Source of the DNA: Halichondria panicea
Taxonomy: Eukaryota > Porifera > Demospongiae > Suberitida > Halichondriidae
NCBI RefSeq assembly: GCF_963675165.1
Contig: NC_087379.1
Coordinates: 4,295,442 to 4,359,441 of the forward strand
Length of the DNA stretch: 64,000 nucleotides
Direction of reading: 5' to 3'
In this document: positions 9,113-57,611 of the stretch, one piece after another
Layout: every line of letters begins with the position of its first letter
Numbering within the stretch: the stretch's first letter is position 1
Notes under the pieces: model-generated
What the model was told of the DNA's origin: nothing
Database searches by the model: none
What the model saw: the letters and a program-made list of their open reading frames with translations, nothing else
Translations under genes and position numbers: made by a program

Positions 9113-9180
9113 TAGCCTCCTTCACCGGCACTTCCCACTTCCCTAAGTGAAGTGGGAAGTGCAGCCTGGGATCGAGGCTA
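9113..9180. mobile_element. Mini TAGCC..GGCTA element with internal hairpin, 68 bp
   Basis: Runs from TAGCCTCC to GATCGAGGCTA and contains the stem CACTTCCCACTT / AAGTGGGAAGTG. No clear target duplication. It shares its right end (GCCTGGGATCGAGGCTA) with the large TAGCC elements. Confidence 0.55.
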
Positions 9181-25217: not shown

Positions 25218-25872
25218 TAGTCTCGGTCCCAAGGATGATGTTAGATCTGCCCTAATAGAACTCCAATCAAAATTTGAAGATAAAATATGTACTGTAGCGC
25301 GTACAAGCCACACAGTATTAAATGATCCACTGGAACATGGGTAAAGAATCCAGAAATGAGAAGTGAAGATACTAGAGTCTGTTTCGGTAGACCGAGACGT
25401 TGCAGATCTCAAGGATCGATTGCTTTCACTTGCACAGTACGGCCTGGGAATTGCAAATGGTGAAACAAAAAGTGAGATAGTATGAAATGCATCAAGTAAA
25501 TAGATATAGTGAAACAAGAGTGGAGGTGGTGGGAAGGGTTACTGGTACTAGATATCTACATCGTCTAGAGCTAGCTATTTAATATGTATAAACTTGTGCC
25601 ATAGATAGTAGAGGATACATGGTTCATCACAAGGAGGCTAGCAGTCTGCTCTCCCTGGCCCCAGGCCCTAGTTAGCTGCTCTGAAGAAACTAATAATGAT
25701 TTGACAGTTACGGTTTTTAACCATTAAAACGAGTATTTTATATTCAAGGTTCAAAGGTCGACAATGGACATATTTCCTGTATTTTTACTCAGAGGAGGAA
25801 TGCCAGTGTCAAAAGGTATACTAATTAAAACACCACATGGCCCTATGTAAAACTGAGTTTACCCTCGCGCCC
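25218..25872. other. Continuation of the inverted repeat, then non-coding flank
   Basis: To about 25830 this is the inverted partner of 16617-17300. Then comes ordinary non-coding sequence ending in CCTCGCGCCC, the target duplication of the next element. Confidence 0.5.
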
Positions 25873-26057
25873 TAGCCTCGATCCCAGGCCGAGTTTTCGC
25901 TTTTATAACGGTTAGGCGAACAACTAGGCCTGGTACTAGTTGTCTGCGCATGCGTCGATTACCGCGGTATCTCTGCGTAAAAATAATCATCATACAGGTG
26001 TTGTACACGAAAATTCACAGTATACAAGTTGCACATGGTTGTGCATAATAGTATAGT

Positions 26058-26460
26058 ATGTCTGAAGTAGAGAGTTGCAGATTGTGCTGCAGCACAGTAA
26101 TAGTGTCCCAGCATAACTTCAGGATGGTATTTAGCACTGAATGCCTCAAGGTAGATTTTGCAGGAAGGCTTAGCAGGCTGCTGGACCTTCCAGTTCTTCA
26201 ATCTGATGGACTATCCGAGTACCTGTGCAGATCTTGCTTGAGAAAGGTTGATTCTCTTGAGGCTTTAAGTGTCTTGCACGACAGAGCTACCAGAAACAAC
26301 GAAGCAGATACACTCCAGTCCTGTAAAGTAGGGCAGGTAAAAAAAGACCTAAGGACACAAGTGGGAATGAAGCCTCACCTCACACTGTCCAGTCTCGCCC
26401 GTTAGCGAAGAGGAGCACTGTTGGAACAGCTGGAAAGAGATTGGTCTTTGCTCCTATACT
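26058..26460 (+). pseudogene. ZAD-type zinc-finger exon of the transposon's plus-strand gene
   Basis: The ATG lies about 100 bp inside the left terminus. MSEVESCRLC..., with Cys7/Cys10 and Cys57/Cys60 (YLCRSCLRKV), gives the C-x2-C ... C-x2-C spacing of zinc-finger-associated (ZAD) domains, which mediate dimerisation and DNA-linked roles. The frame is lost in a run of seven A at 26339-26345. The sequence then continues in another frame as SPHTVQSRPLAKRSTVGTAG. I read this as the first exon of the gene that continues at 26542 and 28874; the exact donor is unclear. Confidence 0.6.
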
Positions 26461-26541
26461 AGGCACTCTATTAATACATACATGCACGTACACTATACAT
26501 AATAATACATATACATAATTGAAAAAAATTGTTACATAATA

Positions 26542-26643
26542 GGTGGTCCCGAAGATACTTGTAGCCAGTCGTCTCCTGTGTTAGAAGTACTTCCTGTTCG
26601 CACTGTTGGTAGTCAAACAGATGTTGACATATCCAGTGTAATG
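26542..26643 (+). pseudogene. Second exon of the plus-strand gene
   Basis: Acceptor-like ATAATAG, then an open reading GPEDTCSQSSPVLEVLPVRT and VGSQTDVDISSVM, closed by a strong donor GTAAGC at 26644. No domain recognised. It fits between the ZAD and DUF6589-like parts. Confidence 0.5.
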
Positions 26644-26659
26644 GTAAGCAATATACACT

Positions 26660-28743
26660 ATGTAAAATACGGGTCCGGATAATATGTCACTAAAGGAAAA
26701 AAGTGCCCCAAGTATATAGGAGAGCTTTAATGCTCGTCGGCACTATATCTCTCCTATATACTATGAGGTATTTTTATAATGCATGTGCATTAAACAATTT
26801 CCCTAGGTATATAGGAGAGCATTAATGTCCATTGGCATTAAAGCTCTCCTATATACTATAGGAAACATTTAATGATCGGCACTAAATCTCTCCTATAATA
26901 ATATGGGATATGCTTTATGATTGAGGGCACTAAGTCTCTCCTATAATGATATGGGATACGCTTAATTAATGCTTGGCACTAAGTCTCCTATAAAAATATG
27001 GATAATGTGTAATGATTGAGGGCACTAAATCTCTCCTATAATAATATGGGAGGTTCTTAATGACTGAGGGCACTAATACTCTCCTATATTACTTTAGACC
27101 TTTCCTATATATCAGATATGACTATAGGAATGATATTGTGTGCCCAGCACTAAAGCTCTCCTATAATAATATGGACAATGCCTAATGTCTGGGGGCACTA
27201 AGTCGCCCACCAAAAGGTGTTAATGTAAAATGATATGAGGCGCTTACATTAGTTAATGAAGGTGCTAAATGTTGATAAATTAGTTGCTTCACTTCTTATC
27301 TTATCGAAAGAGACTGCACACAGATAATGACCCAGAAGGTCCTCCCGACAGAAAACATGCATTCAATTCAGGTGATCATACACCAACAGGTCACAAGAAA
27401 GCAAGACACAGTTTTAAGTTAGCAGACAGCAGCAACAAGAGAAAATCATGTTGGTACTAAGAAGATGGGGCAAAGTGTATTATATTTAGTAGATCGATCT
27501 AACATGATTTATAATTATGCATATAGGAGGATGTGCAAACAATTAAGAGAGTACACTTTAAATTATTTATGTATATAATTATAGGTATAGTTACATGCAT
27601 GTAGAATTCATTCAGACTGAGTTATTTTTATGCAGATAAAATTCTGATCTCGGATAGTCCTCCAACACCCACCGAGTATTGGATTTCACTTACGAGGTCG
27701 ATACTACTGAAAGGAGGCTTACTCACTGACAAGCACATGGATGCATGCTTGTCTAAACACCCCATCAAAGCAATTCCCTGGTATTCCAGATCCTCAGACA
27801 GCCCAACTTCCAGGATCTCTTAAAGCCGCCCAACAAAAATCGATGTTCTTTCACAATTTTTCTGGTCATTGGGCACTGTCAAGTCGTAGCAGTGGCATCG
27901 TCTTCCTCTTCGATTCTCTTCTGCCAAAGGAGCTCGACCTGAAGTTAAAAGAGCAGATGCTGTTGCTCTATGGAAAATGCCTGGTACAAAGACCATATGT
28001 ACAGCGCCAAAAGGGCAGCAAGGACTGTGGGTGCTTTGCAATCGCCTTTTGTGTGTTATTATTATATGGGGAAGATCCTTCGAGTTTGCTGTTTAACCAG
28101 AAGGAGATGCGAGGACACATATTCAGCTGCTTAACACAGGAAAGCTTTCTACCTTTCCCTGCATGTGCCGTGACGAAGAAAGCAAGACGTCCTCTTGAAC
28201 TATGCCTTGATTAGTTTTGACATTGATAGTTTAGTTAAATTGTCCCTTCTTCCCCATACAAATTTGAAGCATAATTAATGATTGTTGTTAGTGCAAACAG
28301 GATAAATTATCTCCTATAGTTATTTAGGAGAGACTTATAGTGCCCTCAGATATTAAGCATACCCCATATTATTATAGGAGAGACTTAGTGCTCCCAGACA
28401 TTAGGCATTGTCCATATTATTATAGGAGAGACTTAGTGCCGAGCATTAAGCGTATCCCATATCATTATAGGAGACCCTCAATCATAAAGCATATCCCATA
28501 TTACTAAGGAGAGATTTGGTGCCGAGCATTAAATGTTTCCTATAGTATATAGGAGAGCTTTAATGCCAATGGACATTAATGCTCTCCTATATACCTGGGG
28601 AAATTGTTTAATGCACATGCATTATAAAAATGCCTCATAGTATATATAGGAGAGGTATAGTGCCGACGAGCATTAAAGCTCTCTTATATACTTGGGGCAC
28701 TTTTTCCATTTAGTGACATTCTGTACGGAACCGTAAAATCCAT
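26660..28743. mobile_element. Nested transposon with long hairpin-array arms, carrying an Ulp1 protease
   Basis: Inverted ends include ATGTCACTAAA.GGAAAAA and GTGCCCCAAGTATATA at 26682-26715, mirrored at 28676-28728. The arms (about 26695-27230 and 28310-28705) are arrays of imperfect hairpins built on CTCTCCTATA / TATAGGAGAG. The outer similarity extends to TACGG.TCCG. The target duplication is not clear. The element lies wholly in an intron of the host transposon's gene. Confidence 0.7.
27636..28214 (+). pseudogene. Ulp1/SENP-like C48 cysteine protease domain
   Basis: The first part reads GGLLTDKHMDACL, the usual LTD.H entry of Ulp1 domains. One frame change near 27755 leads to QFPGIPDPQTAQLPG and then the catalytic core: histidine in GHWALSS, aspartate in FDSLLP, glutamine in QRQKGSKDCG and the nucleophilic cysteine in SKDCGCFAIAF. 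Thus the triad and the oxyanion glutamine are present. Such proteases cut SUMO- or ubiquitin-like modifiers and recur in eukaryotic DNA transposons. It is carried by the nested element. The frame break makes this copy doubtful as an active enzyme. Confidence 0.8.
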
Positions 28744-28873
28744 GACAAAGTACTAGCGTATTAAAAAGAGAGGGCATGCAACAGCTTGCGAGCAATAAAC
28801 TAAAGGGGGTGTGGAAAAGTACTGTAATACCTAAAAATAAATTCTATTAATAGATACTTATTTTAACTTACAG

Positions 28874-29322
28874 ATCACGATAGGCCCAGTGAAGAGCGTG
28901 GTGGATGAAAACTTGCACAAGGTTGTGCAGGCAATAGCAACTTGTAACTGTCCTGAGGCTGTGATGGCCGAACCTTCTCTCAAAAAGGAAGTACTGATCC
29001 GTGTTGCTAGAGTGTTGGACGACGAGTGTAGCAACATGTGCAAAACAACACCACCACTGTCACTTTTCCGGAGGTTTCCTTTGTTGAGTTGTTCTCATAC
29101 AGTAACTGCATAACAGAGCTTCAGACAAAGTGTCCAACCCTATACCAGCTTCTATGGACTGTTGTAACCAGGTCTGACAAGAGGAACACTGTGAAATGCA
29201 CAAGTCAGCATTATCCCAGCATGTGCATGGCTGTTGCTCTCGTCTTAAAAGAACGAAATCAGCACATGACAGGGCTCCAGACCTTTCTCTCACTCGTTTT
29301 GTGCAATTCTAATGTACAAAAA
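28874..29322 (+). pseudogene. Third exon of the plus-strand gene (upstream of DUF6589-like core)
   Basis: Acceptor TTAACTTACAG at 28863-28873; the reading opens ITIGPVKSVVDENLHKVVQA. A frame break near 29040 shifts it to FPEVSFVELFSYSNCITELQ and TKCPTLYQLLWTVVT, ending NSNVQKK before a GT donor at 29322. The order matches sponge and cnidarian DUF6589-type proteins as I know them. Function unknown. Confidence 0.55.
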
Positions 29323-29433
29323 AAGGTTGGTATAATTATATGCACACACGGATATTAGATATCGAGTGTCAGTAGTGTGCGTGTGTGTGTGCATTGTCTT
29401 GCTGATTGTAAAAGCCAACTTATAATTACACAG

Positions 29434-30150
29434 GTGCTTACAAGACTAAACTACATGAATGTAACTATCAGTTACACAGCAGTGATGAAACTAATCACCG
29501 GCATAAGTGAGCAACACAAGGCACCAATTGAGAAATGGGTCAACGAGGGAACAATATTTCAATTTGTAGGTGACAACGTGGACAAGACAGTGGGAGTGCG
29601 AGACATAAGAACAGACCAAAGAAGCACATTAGTACACATGTACAGCTTACTTGCTGTACGAGCCAGAGTTGATCCTCCACCTCCCATCTTTGACTTCATT
29701 CCCCCTGATTTAACCAAGATTGCGGTATCCTACTTCCTGCCAAATCAAGCAGATGTAGATGCTCTGAGGTCCAACTTGTCTCAAGGGTTCTCGCTGACTA
29801 CATTGGAGTTTTTAAGCCTCAAAAACGTAAGAGTAGTGGCTCACATTCAGCATGCCCACAGCAAGGAAATGAAAGAGAAATCAGGAGTTGTGGATGTCCT
29901 ACACAAGTGTGAGACAAAAACAACGGACATGATCGATATCATGAGAGAAATGATTTCTTACCTAGGAGACAGCGCTAACACATGTTTGTCGGTGGGTGAC
30001 CTACTCACGAAGGAGAGGCAGGACGGAAGCAAAAGACACGTTATTTGCTCTAACACACCCTCTGGTCGTCTCATCACCTAGAGCCATGTATAGCAGATTG
30101 GCACTGTCTCCTCAATTTCTTGATGGTATGGACTGCATGGCTAGTAATGT
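29434..30150 (+). pseudogene. DUF6589-like exon, first half
   Basis: Acceptor ATTACACAG at 29425-29433. The frame reads VLTRLNYMNVTISYTAVMKL, FQFVGDNVDKTVGVRDIRTD (a conserved GDN block with aspartates that could be catalytic) and VGDLLTKERQDGSKR. After a frame break near 30070 the next frame reads LEPCIADWHCLLNFLMVWTA. The D/W-rich blocks are what I rely on for the DUF6589 call. In the family the activity is not established; a transposase role is my inference from its position. Confidence 0.6.
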
Positions 30151-30323
30151 GACCTATAGGGTGTTACTTTAATAGAATAAAATAGACATACGTATCCTAA
30201 TGTTACATGTACATAAAACTGCAGGTAACCGGCTGAGGTACGTACGTATCTTACTGTAACTATGTTACTGTACGTATACTACACACAAAAGTATACCGTT
30301 TATAATACATCTCACCATTGCAG

Positions 30324-30856
30324 CTTGTTTGGAAACACCTCTTTAAGACCAGCCCAAGAGATCACGGCACACTTCGGCACAAGATCGGTCGACTCCCTGA
30401 TGCAAACAAACCAAAGAAGAATCTCCACGCAGGTCTTCTTACAGCGTTTTATGGGCATCTAGTGGAAGCTGCTCGTTTGGAACTTGGCATAAAGAGTGTA
30501 GACGACTTTCCACTTGACAGCACTGGAGCTAAGGTTAAAGTCAAACTTTCAGACGTTGCCAGTGCAATTGTTGACAAGTGGACTATAGTACCAGAAGCGA
30601 TTCTTGGACAGCCCCTTAATGACAGTAGTGATGTTGTCAACAATTATGCGCATGTTCTTTGTCACTTTCCTGCTCTTGTTTCAGAGTTCTACAATGGTTG
30701 GCACGAAGGTGATGGACTACGAATGCTAAGATGTTGGAAAATCCACTTCTTTGCGAATAGGAATACGAAGTATGCACTCGAATCGCTTAAGCTTCAATTT
30801 CAACTTGCTTCTCTGCCACCTGACTTAGTCCACCAGCTCACATGGGGTCGTTTTGT
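30324..30856 (+). pseudogene. DUF6589-like exon, second half, truncated
   Basis: Acceptor CCATTGCAG, then LVWKHLFKTSPRDHGTLRHK, FYGHLVEAARLELG, FYNGWHEGDGLRMLRCWKIH and NTKYALESLKLQFQLASLPP, the last three blocks being the best recognised for the family. The reading reaches LTWGRFV and is then cut by minus-strand RecQ sequence at about 30855, removing the usual C-terminal end. Confidence 0.65.
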
Positions 30857-31857
30857 CTTTCCTATTGGGGACATCTGATGGTGACCAGTATATGGTAGAC
30901 GTGGACAATTCTCCTCCCCGACCACTTTCTTGAAAGTAGTCTTCAAGTGATCTTGGAGCTCCATAGTGGACAATAGAAGTCAAATCCTTAAAGTTCATAC
31001 CCATACCGAGGGCCATAGTAGCGAACAAATTTGCACCCTCGCATGTCAAGAGTTCCGACAATCTGCCTTCTCATCTTCTCTGTTACTGTTGCAGTGGCTG
31101 CAAGCATCGGCGTACCCGGTGGAGCATAGGCTCTCAAGTCACAAATACGACCATAACAGGGACGGAAATAAGAACTCCTATTGTGGTGTATGTGTGTGTG
31201 TGTGGTTTGTAATCGTGACGTATACTAATTAAAGCACTATACATGTATAATTATTTTCTTACCATTTGTAAACACAGTGAGCCTGCCTCGTCTACAGCAA
31301 TATATAGCAACCAAAGTGTTGCAGACAGGAGGAGACAGTAACACTTTGGTCCAACTCGAGCCATGATCACCAACTAGAGCCTCAGGGGCTGAGTAAAGAA
31401 TCCTATAGCTCCCACTGCCAATACCACAGTCAGTAGCCACCAGGCTACGGTCTATCCCTCTGTTGGAGCTGATAATGGCAGCACCAACTCCTCTAGCTCG
31501 CAAACTCTTCACTTGGTCCACCATCAGAGAAACCAACGGCAACACTACCAGCACAACACTCTGATCAACGCTTGGAGATTCAGATCTACCTAGCAGCCTA
31601 TCAAACACAAATGGGAGCACTTGATAGCATATGGATTTGCCATAACCAGTCGGGAACCACACAAAGACATCATGACCTTGAGAAAGCAGGTTTATAGCCT
31701 TTACTTGCTCTGACTTTAGAATAAGATCTCCAAGTTTCAGGGAAGATAGAGCGTCAGCTATAGCACTGTCTAACACAATACAACTTAACTTGCAGTAGCC
31801 ATTCCAAATTGATAGTATACGAATATAAATGTCACAAAAGTGAACGAGAATATCCAT
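30855..31857 (-). pseudogene. RecQ-like SF2 DNA helicase, truncated and internally deleted (copy C)
   Basis: Start at 31857, about 25 bp inside the right terminus. Motif order: Q-like LILKSEQVKAINLL, Walker A WFPTGYGKSICYQ, Ia LPLVSLMVDQVKSLRARG, RILYSAPEALVGDHG, a damaged DEAH box (reads DEAG after a 3-4 base insertion), an intron of about 90 bp from a GTAAGA donor near 31268, then YFRPCYGRICDLRA, motif III PMLAATATVTEKM, a deletion removing the motif IV region, motif V ATMALGMGMNFKDL and motif VI YFQESGRGGE, ending STIYWSPSDVP. RecQ helicases unwind DNA 3'-5' with ATP. The RQC and later domains are absent. Confidence 0.85.
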
Positions 31858-31964
31858 TCGTCAGAATCTGACTAACGATTGACGCATGCGCAGACAACTA
31901 GTACCAGGCCTAGTTGTTCGCCTAACCGTTATAAAAGCGAAAACTCGGCCTGGGATCGAGGCTA

Positions 31965-32580
31965 CCTCGCGCCCCTGAGTTTATACAGCTTGATCCTCTT
32001 TATAATCACAACAGAAATCGGTTGAGCTATCGCGCCCCAGAGGAATCAGCTTGAGAGAGGAGATCCAGGATTTAATTGCAACCTTTGACCTTTTATTGCA
32101 TTCTTCAAAACCACAAGATATGGAAATTAGCCTTCTGTGGCTATAGTATAAATGTTGATGCACTGGCTTGCTGCACTGGATAGATCTAGGCTTTCCAAGC
32201 AGGCAAATAAAGAACAGAAGCGCTAAGCTGCTATATGCAGCAAAGGTCAAGAACCCAGAACAAGAATGTTTGATCCTTTATTAAATGTGACCCTCCTCTG
32301 GTATTTACTAGCCTTGGCCGATTAAAATATTAAGGCCTGGTACCTATTGCAGGGGTGATAGTGCGCATGCGCTTCAAATTACCCAGAATATATTTTTTTT
32401 TTTTTTTGAAAATAAAAGTGAGTTAGAGGACAAAATTAATGATGACAAAATTAATGATTAATGAGTTAACTTAATGTGAAAAAACTAAAGTCATGTAAAA
32501 CCGAATATTCCGAGTTGGCCAAGTCCACTGAAGGGTGATTCTGGGACCTGGCTGGCTGTCCACGACTGCATGGAGCGGGA
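31965..32580. other. Non-coding stretch with a TAGCC-type end
   Basis: No gene. At 32309 starts TAGCCTTGGCCGATTAAAAT with the inner GGCCTGGTACC, another terminus of the TAGCC family; its partner was not found. An A/T tract follows at 32391-32410. Confidence 0.45.
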
Positions 32581-33080
32581 TCATTGAATGGCGGAGCGTA
32601 GGAGAGAGAAGGTAATTCGACTCCTTAGCCAGGACAGTGTTCGCTTTAATTCATTAGATTTGATTGCCAAGTTTGAGGCTAGCCTTTTGTAGAACACAGT
32701 GGCCTGGTTGGCTGTGGCTGACATCACCAAAGGAGTGAATGAGGCGTGTTGTTCATATTGTCTCTTCTTTTCAAGTTCATGCTTCCTGTAGTAGTTGGTG
32801 TGTTGGTTCGATCTTGCGTGGGGATTAAACACCAGATATGTACGTTCAAAGCGCCCACCCCAGAAGCCATTACACGCAATGTCTAATCTGGCACCGTCTT
32901 GGACGTTTGATGGCAGCCCGATTAGTTCTTCACCACTTACAGGTTGTAGTTCAGGCTCTACACAGACGTCACTGCAAATTTCAGTGAGTAAGTTGGCCGT
33001 TAAATCTCTTATTTCTGTGAAACCACCCTTAGGGCATGACAGAGCGTGATCAACTGAGAATTGTTTACCGCATGCATAAG
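32581..33080 (-). pseudogene. C-terminal fragment of a retroelement RT protein (fragment 1)
   Basis: The minus strand reads DHALSCPKGGF, QDGARLDIACNGFWGG, FNPHARSNQHTNYYRKHELE, HASFTPLVMSATANQATVFY and LRSRITFSLLRSAIQ. The same series occurs in the longer pseudogene at 34091-37424 and in the fragment at 44535-45000, so this is a third copy. It carries frame breaks. The clade of the RT is not settled from these fragments. Confidence 0.65.
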
Positions 33081-33109
33081 ATGAAGGGACTCCTGATGGT
33101 TGCTAACTG

Positions 33110-40438: not shown

Positions 40439-40487
40439 TAGCCTCCTTCACAAGGCCTAAACAATTAGCGGCCTGGAATCGAGGCTA
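40439..40487. mobile_element. Minimal TAGCC element, 49 bp, TSD TGGTTGGAC
   Basis: Runs from TAGCCTCCTTCAC to TGGAATCGAGGCTA and is flanked by exact 9-bp repeats at 40430-40438 and 40488-40496. The whole element is little more than two termini sharing one hairpin. Confidence 0.8.
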
Positions 40488-44048: not shown

Positions 44049-44146
44049 TAGCCTCGATCCCAGGCCGAGTTTTCGCTTTTATAACGGTAGGCTAGTTGTT
44101 CGCCTAACCGTTATAAAAGCGAAAACTCGGCCTGGGATCGAGGCTA
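44049..44146. mobile_element. Mini TAGCC element, 98 bp, termini identical to copy C
   Basis: TAGCCTCGATCCCAGGCCGA, GTTTTCGCTTTTATAACGG, then the inverse. GCTCTACGC occurs four bases before the left end and directly after the right end. Sequence identity with the termini of 25873-31964 suggests mobilisation by the same enzyme. Confidence 0.8.
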
Positions 44147-57549: not shown

Positions 57550-57611
57550 TAGCCTCGAGACCAGCCGTTTGTTATCTGAAAGAACATAACGAATGGCTGG
57601 TCTCGAGGCTA
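57550..57611. mobile_element. Mini TAGCC element, 62 bp, TSD CTGTTAGG
   Basis: TAGCCTCGAGACCAGCCG and CGGCTGGTCTCGAGGCTA-like ends (the inner stem is CCAGCCGTTTGTTAT / ATAACGAATGGCTGG). CTGTTAGG on both sides (8 bp). Confidence 0.75.

Follow-up and report, generated by a model that had tools for sequence, protein, structure and literature searches.

A probable AcademH DNA transposon that pairs a DUF6589 gene with a convergent RecQ gene in the sponge Halichondria panicea

A stretch of 64,000 nucleotides from the sponge Halichondria panicea (hereafter the window; NCBI RefSeq assembly GCF_963675165.1, contig NC_087379.1, positions 4,295,442 to 4,359,441 of the forward strand) holds, at positions 25873-31964, a mobile element with two genes between long inverted ends. 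One is a plus-strand gene encoding a ZAD domain followed by DUF6589, and the other is a RecQ helicase gene that converges on it. In this work, we describe this copy together with its relatives in the same genome and argue that it is very probably a decayed DNA transposon of the AcademH type, with the DUF6589 protein as putative transposase and RecQ as its helper. Comparison of the termini places both limits exactly to the base. The element runs from TAG to CTA, and its left and right terminal inverted repeats (TIRs) align over 84 of 85 bases with 100% identity; the TIR starts with TAGCCTCGATCCCAGG, its opening in the window being TAGCCTCG. Outside both ends stands the same 10-bp sequence, CCTCGCGCCC; an 8-bp flank match was met by chance in 10 of 200,000 pairs of positions drawn at random from the window. 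Genome-wide, the terminus occurs nearly complete at no fewer than 40 places, the two ends of each element being counted singly. These results bear out the original prediction, made from the letters of the window, which had described inverted termini of about 85 bp, a 10-bp target duplication, and a ZAD-then-DUF6589 gene on the plus strand with a convergent RecQ gene, the domains of both genes being confirmed by Pfam. The same prediction called the element composite, a label that is unsuitable because both genes belong to a single transposon. The features are collected in Table 1.

Table 1. Features of the element, of the insertion nested in it, and of the tiny foldback insertions (window coordinates unless a locus is named)
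Feature	Position	Strand	Basis
Left target-site duplication, CCTCGCGCCC	25863..25872		exact 10-bp repeat of 31965-31974
Left TIR, TAGCCTCGATCCCAGGCC...	25873..25957	+	terminus comparison
Left-end palindrome CCAGGCC...GGCCTGG, TIR bp 12-61	25884..25933		inverted-repeat scan, 2/200 shuffles as good; DNA fold z -4.2
First transposase exon with ZAD (zf-AD), frame broken	26058..26405	+	Pfam zf-AD over 26052-26402 (E 2.1e-6; 28.3 bits, cut-off 28); L033 comparison; ends by eye
Nested insertion, long inverted ends of short repeats, foreign to the AcademH element	26671..28732		absent from L033; limits by eye
Ulp1-like (Peptidase_C48) frame in the nested insertion	27711..28211	+	PF02902 E 0.11, below cut-off
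Transposase exon, N-terminal region, frame broken	28874..29325	+	open reading frames 28841-29113 and 29032-29358; L033/L034 equivalents; splice ends by eye
Transposase exon with GDN and GD.LT blocks	29434..30125	+	8-row alignment, sequence; splice ends by eye
DUF6589 C-terminal exon, truncated ahead of the block of the third conserved acidic residue	30324..30878	+	PF20231 in 30306-30875, E 1.1e-6 (Pfam); L033 comparison
RecQ C-terminal part, Helicase_C	30825..31070	-	PF00271 E 4.2e-6
RecQ middle part	30988..31224	-	open reading frame; no own Pfam match; aligns with L033 RecQ
RecQ N-terminal part, DEAD domain	31237..31860	-	PF00270 E 9.3e-11
Right-end palindrome	31904..31953		inverted-repeat scan, 0/200 shuffles as good
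Right TIR	31880..31964	-	terminus comparison
Right target-site duplication, CCTCGCGCCC	31965..31974		exact 10-bp repeat of 25863-25872
Tiny foldbacks, window	40439-40487, 57550-57611, 44049-44146, 9113-9180
Tiny foldbacks, other regions	L001:2753-2789, L037:6883-6917, L059-L071

The window copy is dead: both of its genes are broken, frameshifts are present, and the C-terminus of DUF6589 is missing. Compared with L033, a copy 95% identical to it, the window copy shows 19 gaps, and its DUF6589 frame terminates in ...GRFVFPIGDI*, at which point L033 continues with GRFVNTRGGEGNNIPCDLYNEH... The codons of the first two conserved aspartates are retained at 29572-29574 (in GDN) and 29998-30000 (in GD.LT).

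The pairing of the two genes recurs throughout the genome. Matches to the DUF6589 exon of the window (46) and to that of a second copy, L045 (74), merge into 54 loci. A convergent RecQ match lies within 6 kb downstream at 31 of the 38 loci with an exon of at least 450 bp, and at 36 of all 54, as against 58 of 20,000 placements in a random control covering 13 of the 39 contigs. The families with the convergent pair encode transposases 30-58% identical to that of L045, and the ZAD/DUF6589 and RecQ element is present in H. panicea as several families. It might be supposed that chance or nesting has placed the two genes between common termini and that they do not form one unit, as the window does hold one nested element and RecQ-only repeats are common; the convergent order within 6 kb at so many loci, in families so divergent, refutes chance juxtaposition and leaves this explanation a probability close to nil. 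The original claim that both genes are part of one mobile element is supported.

Sixteen copy regions were compared, 12 of them chosen for having both genes already seen and four (L044-L047) picked by the transposase alone. With the L045 helicase as query, RecQ was found in 15 regions, all except L046; among the four picked by transposase it was therefore found in three, one of which (L045) is the source of the query and another (L047) gives a weak match. TIR pairs 5.1-6.3 kb apart span both genes in seven regions (L034, L036, L037, L040, L041, L044, and L045), and within the DNA examined no spanning pair was found in the other nine. Shorter copies share these ends: deletion has reduced L057 to 802 bp, which retain the TAGCCTCG ends and a RecQ remnant but no DUF6589 gene and are flanked by a 9-bp duplication, and the copies of about 1 kb (L001, L003, and L005-L007) leave no room for either gene.

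Target duplications were examined in 14 insertions with TAG...CTA ends. In this numbering L002 denotes the window copy, L004 and L005 are one element, and no right end was present for L008 in the DNA examined; L040, whose left TAG is lost, stands outside the 14. Exact duplications of 9-10 bp flank 10 of them, with 10 bp at the window copy and L003 and 9 bp at L001, L006, L007, L034, L036, L044, L045, and L057. No duplication among these insertions is TTAA. The original prediction had named, as support, copies with both genes between like termini and duplications of 9-10 bp; both were found.

L045 offers the most complete view of the two proteins. Its transposase model comprises seven exons and 965 aa, its RecQ model three exons and 444 aa; all introns are GT-AG, neither model contains a stop, and the TIRs are identical across 74 bp. 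The transposase model starts with a Cys-x2-Cys ... Cys-x2-Cys module, and DUF6589 occupies residues 476-904 (E 1.1e-55). When L045 was aligned with seven proteins 30-58% identical to it, all eight rows matched DUF6589, and G419, D420, and N421 (GDN), D592 (GGDQLT), D625 (EDWH), and E853 (DLHMEH) were among the invariant residues; D420, D592, and E853 are the likely catalytic triad. In an AlphaFold model of P0070, a homologue modelled from the second D onward with 80 sequences (predicted local distance difference test score, pLDDT, 77.9; below 50 at residues 52-119, and poor around the second D), the stretch from the second D to the E is mostly helical; the model is without the first core strands. 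The DUF6589 protein may alternatively be an accessory factor, with RecQ or a host enzyme performing the strand chemistry. No catalytic fold was seen in the partial DUF6589 models, which would suit such a role, but L045 has between its ends no open frame of at least 80 aa besides those overlapping the two genes, and D420, D592, E853, and other residues are invariant in eight divergent rows, so that we consider an accessory role highly improbable. The prediction that DUF6589 is the transposase stands insofar as the protein is the best candidate, presumably of the DDD/E type, a role that the conserved acidic residues support and do not prove.

The distribution of the protein extends beyond these loci. 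A same-family protein of H. panicea is recorded at NCBI (P0001), and a homologue is present in Ephydatia muelleri (P0002). A conserved 116-residue stretch used as query returned 200 proteins, with PF20231 in all 120 among the matches listed. Two further homologues, P0105 and P0106, have long acidic inserts before an EGDG block.

RecQ proteins are 3'-5' DNA helicases. By its matches, the L045 helicase is a RecQ: among the best 60 of 103 matches in the PDB, those to WRN (1.6e-44), to a chain named RecQ (1.2e-39), and to BLM (1.3e-37) are far stronger than the best match to an RNA helicase (8.8e-10).

The lineage AcademH was reportedly defined by Kojima in 2020, and the paper relaying the presence of RecQ in Academ is said to be that of Bao and Jurka from 2013. 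On the traits compared, namely duplications, helicase, TIRs, and absence of a nearby XPG nuclease, the H. panicea element is AcademH. A passage in PMC3627910 attributes the report of a RecQ helicase in Academ to Kapitonov et al. As given in the passages of PMC10045372 (Kojima 2023) on these lineages, AcademH encodes a helicase and generates duplications of 9 or 10 bp, both of which the H. panicea element shares, whereas AcademX generates 3 or 4 bp, a difference which that paper relates to helicase versus nuclease; a reference title cited there places AcademH in animals and fungi. The original prediction, which knew of no named superfamily with this set of genes, was wrong in this respect, because Academ with RecQ and AcademH with 9-10 bp duplications are both in print (passages in PMC3627910 and PMC10045372).

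AcademX itself, the sister lineage by name, was rejected: in contrast to its nuclease and 3-4 bp duplications (as stated in the AcademX passages of PMC10045372), the duplications here measure 9-10 bp and no XPG gene lies near the DUF6589 loci. Nine XPG_I matches were found genome-wide, none of them near any DUF6589 locus when compared by eye. Six form an array on contig C13 at 3.75-3.87 Mb (L052-L056 and one more), their frames measuring 588-601 aa and following each other at intervals of mostly some 17 kb, and a RecQ match (C13:3869594) is situated some 3.4 kb away from the last of them. This cluster was also considered as AcademX and rejected, as no DUF6589 locus is nearby. The 588-aa frame of L053, in the same array, we take to resemble a host gene of the asteroid type.

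Kolobok elements have TTAA as their target duplication, in contrast to the 9-10 bp duplications of varied sequence found here, and on this ground a KolobokH-like element was rejected. The comparison is a natural one, in that the Kolobok superfamily has a RecQ-encoding lineage, KolobokH, with RecQ beside the transposase as in H. panicea, and one rhodophyte Kolobok carries RecQ on the complementary strand; yet KolobokH belongs to another superfamily, is known from fungi only, and has RecQ downstream of the transposase domain (all according to passages in PMC9587614). Together with the duplications, this makes a KolobokH origin extremely unlikely. A point for a new superfamily, unrelated to Academ and with an independently acquired RecQ, is that DUF6589 is named nowhere in the literature searched; the testable traits of AcademH, a helicase gene and a 9-10 bp duplication, nevertheless both match, and we regard a new superfamily as very unlikely.

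Several observations weigh against an AcademH element in which the two genes form one unit. Seven of the 38 larger DUF6589 loci lack a convergent RecQ, and one locus has RecQ on the same strand. Many RecQ matches lack the partner gene: a convergent DUF6589 accompanies 31 of 70 RecQ loci at a distance of up to 6 kb, and of 12 RecQ loci taken with 1.5-kb flanks (L021-L032) only two match the L045 transposase; L057 belongs to a high-copy RecQ group and is the sole such loner to have been read with longer flanks. The duplications are imperfect at L005 (10 bp with two mismatches) and short at L041 (8 bp); there is no clean duplication at L037 or at a 98-bp insertion at window position 44049, and none at L040. 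Finally, the partial P0070 model, which covers the C-terminal half, has no clear match in the PDB, a model that includes the blocks of the first and second D is of poor quality (pLDDT 48.4), and an RNase H fold was not seen in the partial models.

The ends of the AcademH element carry a palindrome a short distance inside the TAG. Of the 21 TIRs examined, 19 have the best inverted repeat within their first 62 bases starting at bp 11-14, counted from the TAG (L040 lacks its first three bases, and its positions are counted accordingly), the exceptions being L001 right and L040 left; a palindrome is thus present at most ends examined, in support of the original prediction on this point. At least the outer 7 bp are perfectly paired in 15 of the 19 ends, and one pair fails in the remaining four. 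A hairpin as good was reached by 0-5 of 200 shuffles in 12 ends and by 12-13 of 200 in three (both L044 ends and L057 right), and the four ends with a failing pair are no better than chance (132-141 of 200); the ends are not independent in these counts, because several are near-copies of each other. Loops range from 3 to 35 bases, and DNA folding of eight ends gave z-scores of -2.9 to -4.3. A set of 62 distinct 75-mers starting with TAGCCTCG was taken from the DNA examined without regard to structure; in it, perfect pairing over 7 bp is most frequent at bp 12 (21 of 62), followed by bp 13 (13), bp 14 (10), and bp 11 (7), and no other position between 1 and 35 exceeds 6. An end from a third family, L058, examined after the hypothesis was set, has a palindrome that opens at bp 10 and in which a single pair fails.

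The arms also change together between families. Across eight distinct arm pairs without L058, three of eight base pairs change on both sides (39 of 500 shuffles did as well) and covariation is 0.277 against 0.065 (0 of 500); with L058 included, four of eight base pairs change on both sides (3 of 500) and covariation is 0.326 against 0.065, falling to 0.056 or less when the arms are slid. The test favours structure because the arms were picked as hairpins, and independent families are few. Moreover, sequence conservation within TAGCCTCG families extends to the arms, so that the palindrome can be read equally well as a symmetric site for protein binding or as a hairpin. IS200/IS605 elements move by a single-strand HUH transposase and have neither a TIR nor a 9-bp duplication. 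Palindromes close to the terminus do mark the ends of IS200/IS605 and of GTAG-tagged REP sequences in prokaryotes (passages in PMC6006769 and PMC3733652), a likeness of resemblance only.

Tiny TAG...CTA foldbacks of the TAGCCTCG...CGAGGCTA type, 35-98 bp long and consisting of little more than two ends, occur in the window and elsewhere. The 18 rows listed represent 17 insertions at most, as L059 repeats window 57550, and L067 and L068, which have their left flank in common, may be a single insertion; part of the rows was chosen for matching nearly the whole of a 62-bp query. Duplications of 8-9 bp flank 12 of the 17, eight of them exact and four with one mismatch, and these 12 insertions are 35-72 bp long; no duplication was found in five rows (L061, L067, L068, window 44049, and window 9113). 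The differing lengths and junctions of the tiny units imply many separate events. The 62-bp foldback is one insertion that was copied, because L059 has the same duplication and flanks, while a 35-bp foldback stands at two different sites, and equal junctions could arise twice. The tiny units are either remnants of longer insertions that have lost their middle or mobile as they are.

The window copy has been altered in other ways. The nested insertion, 2,062 bp long, is absent from L033, and the element proper therefore measures about 4.0 kb. The insertion is flanked by GTAAAATAC and GTAAAATCC, a duplication of 9 bp in which one base differs (26662-26670 and 28733-28741), ends in GGGTCCGG/GGTTCCG, and has long inverted arms of units of about 48 bp. 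Its Ulp1-like frame has matches 94% and 85% identical elsewhere, and no transposase was recognised beside this frame within it; our guess is that it is perhaps a non-autonomous Mutator-like element. The insertion is younger than its host element. Between the window copy and L033 there are 41 substitutions in 3699 aligned bases; six stretches of exactly 9 bp are missing from the window copy, and 8 of the 19 gaps measure 8-10 bp; L040 likewise shows four 9-bp gaps relative to L041. Just beyond the element, a 173-aa open frame on the minus strand (32581-33102) has no Pfam match at E 1.

In the mechanism we propose, the DUF6589 protein would act as a DDD/E transposase in whose core a mostly helical insertion separates the second D from the E; it would recognise the TIR, cut at the TAG, and excise the element, which would then be joined to a target staggered by 9-10 bp. 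The N-terminal Cys-x2-Cys (ZAD-type) module and the TIR dyad may serve end recognition, and copies without one or both genes would have moved in trans. RecQ may unwind the DNA of the ends or of the stagger; such a role would agree with duplications that are longer in AcademH (9-10 bp) than in nuclease-bearing AcademX (3-4 bp), a link suggested in a passage of Kojima (2023).

A bolder proposal, which we consider doubtful, is that AcademH ends work as hairpins or cruciforms and not as simple double-stranded inverted repeats, that RecQ extrudes or resolves the dyad and thereby allows the DUF6589 transposase to pair them, and that the foldbacks of 35-72 bp, with their duplications of 8-9 bp, are real minimal elements that have been mobilised. 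The dyad would then lie at a fixed 10-14 bp from the cut and be kept by compensatory changes between families, with the loop free, and foldbacks of this size, too short for their ends to meet as straight double-stranded DNA, might have them meet at the base of a cruciform. Competing with this proposal is a reading in which the foldbacks are remnants of internal deletion and the dyad is a plain protein-binding site. The AcademH passages of PMC10045372 contain neither a covarying subterminal palindrome nor tiny foldbacks.

What was already known is thus the AcademH type, and what goes beyond it is the palindrome with its compensatory changes together with the tiny foldbacks. Since L045 combines uninterrupted gene models with identical TIRs, ordinary assays are possible. 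The analysis gives a likely function to DUF6589, a Pfam family of unknown function, and links it to a lineage of sponge transposons that bear a helicase (H. panicea, with a homologue in Ephydatia muelleri), and the palindrome at the ends is a concrete, testable candidate substrate for the RecQ of the element.

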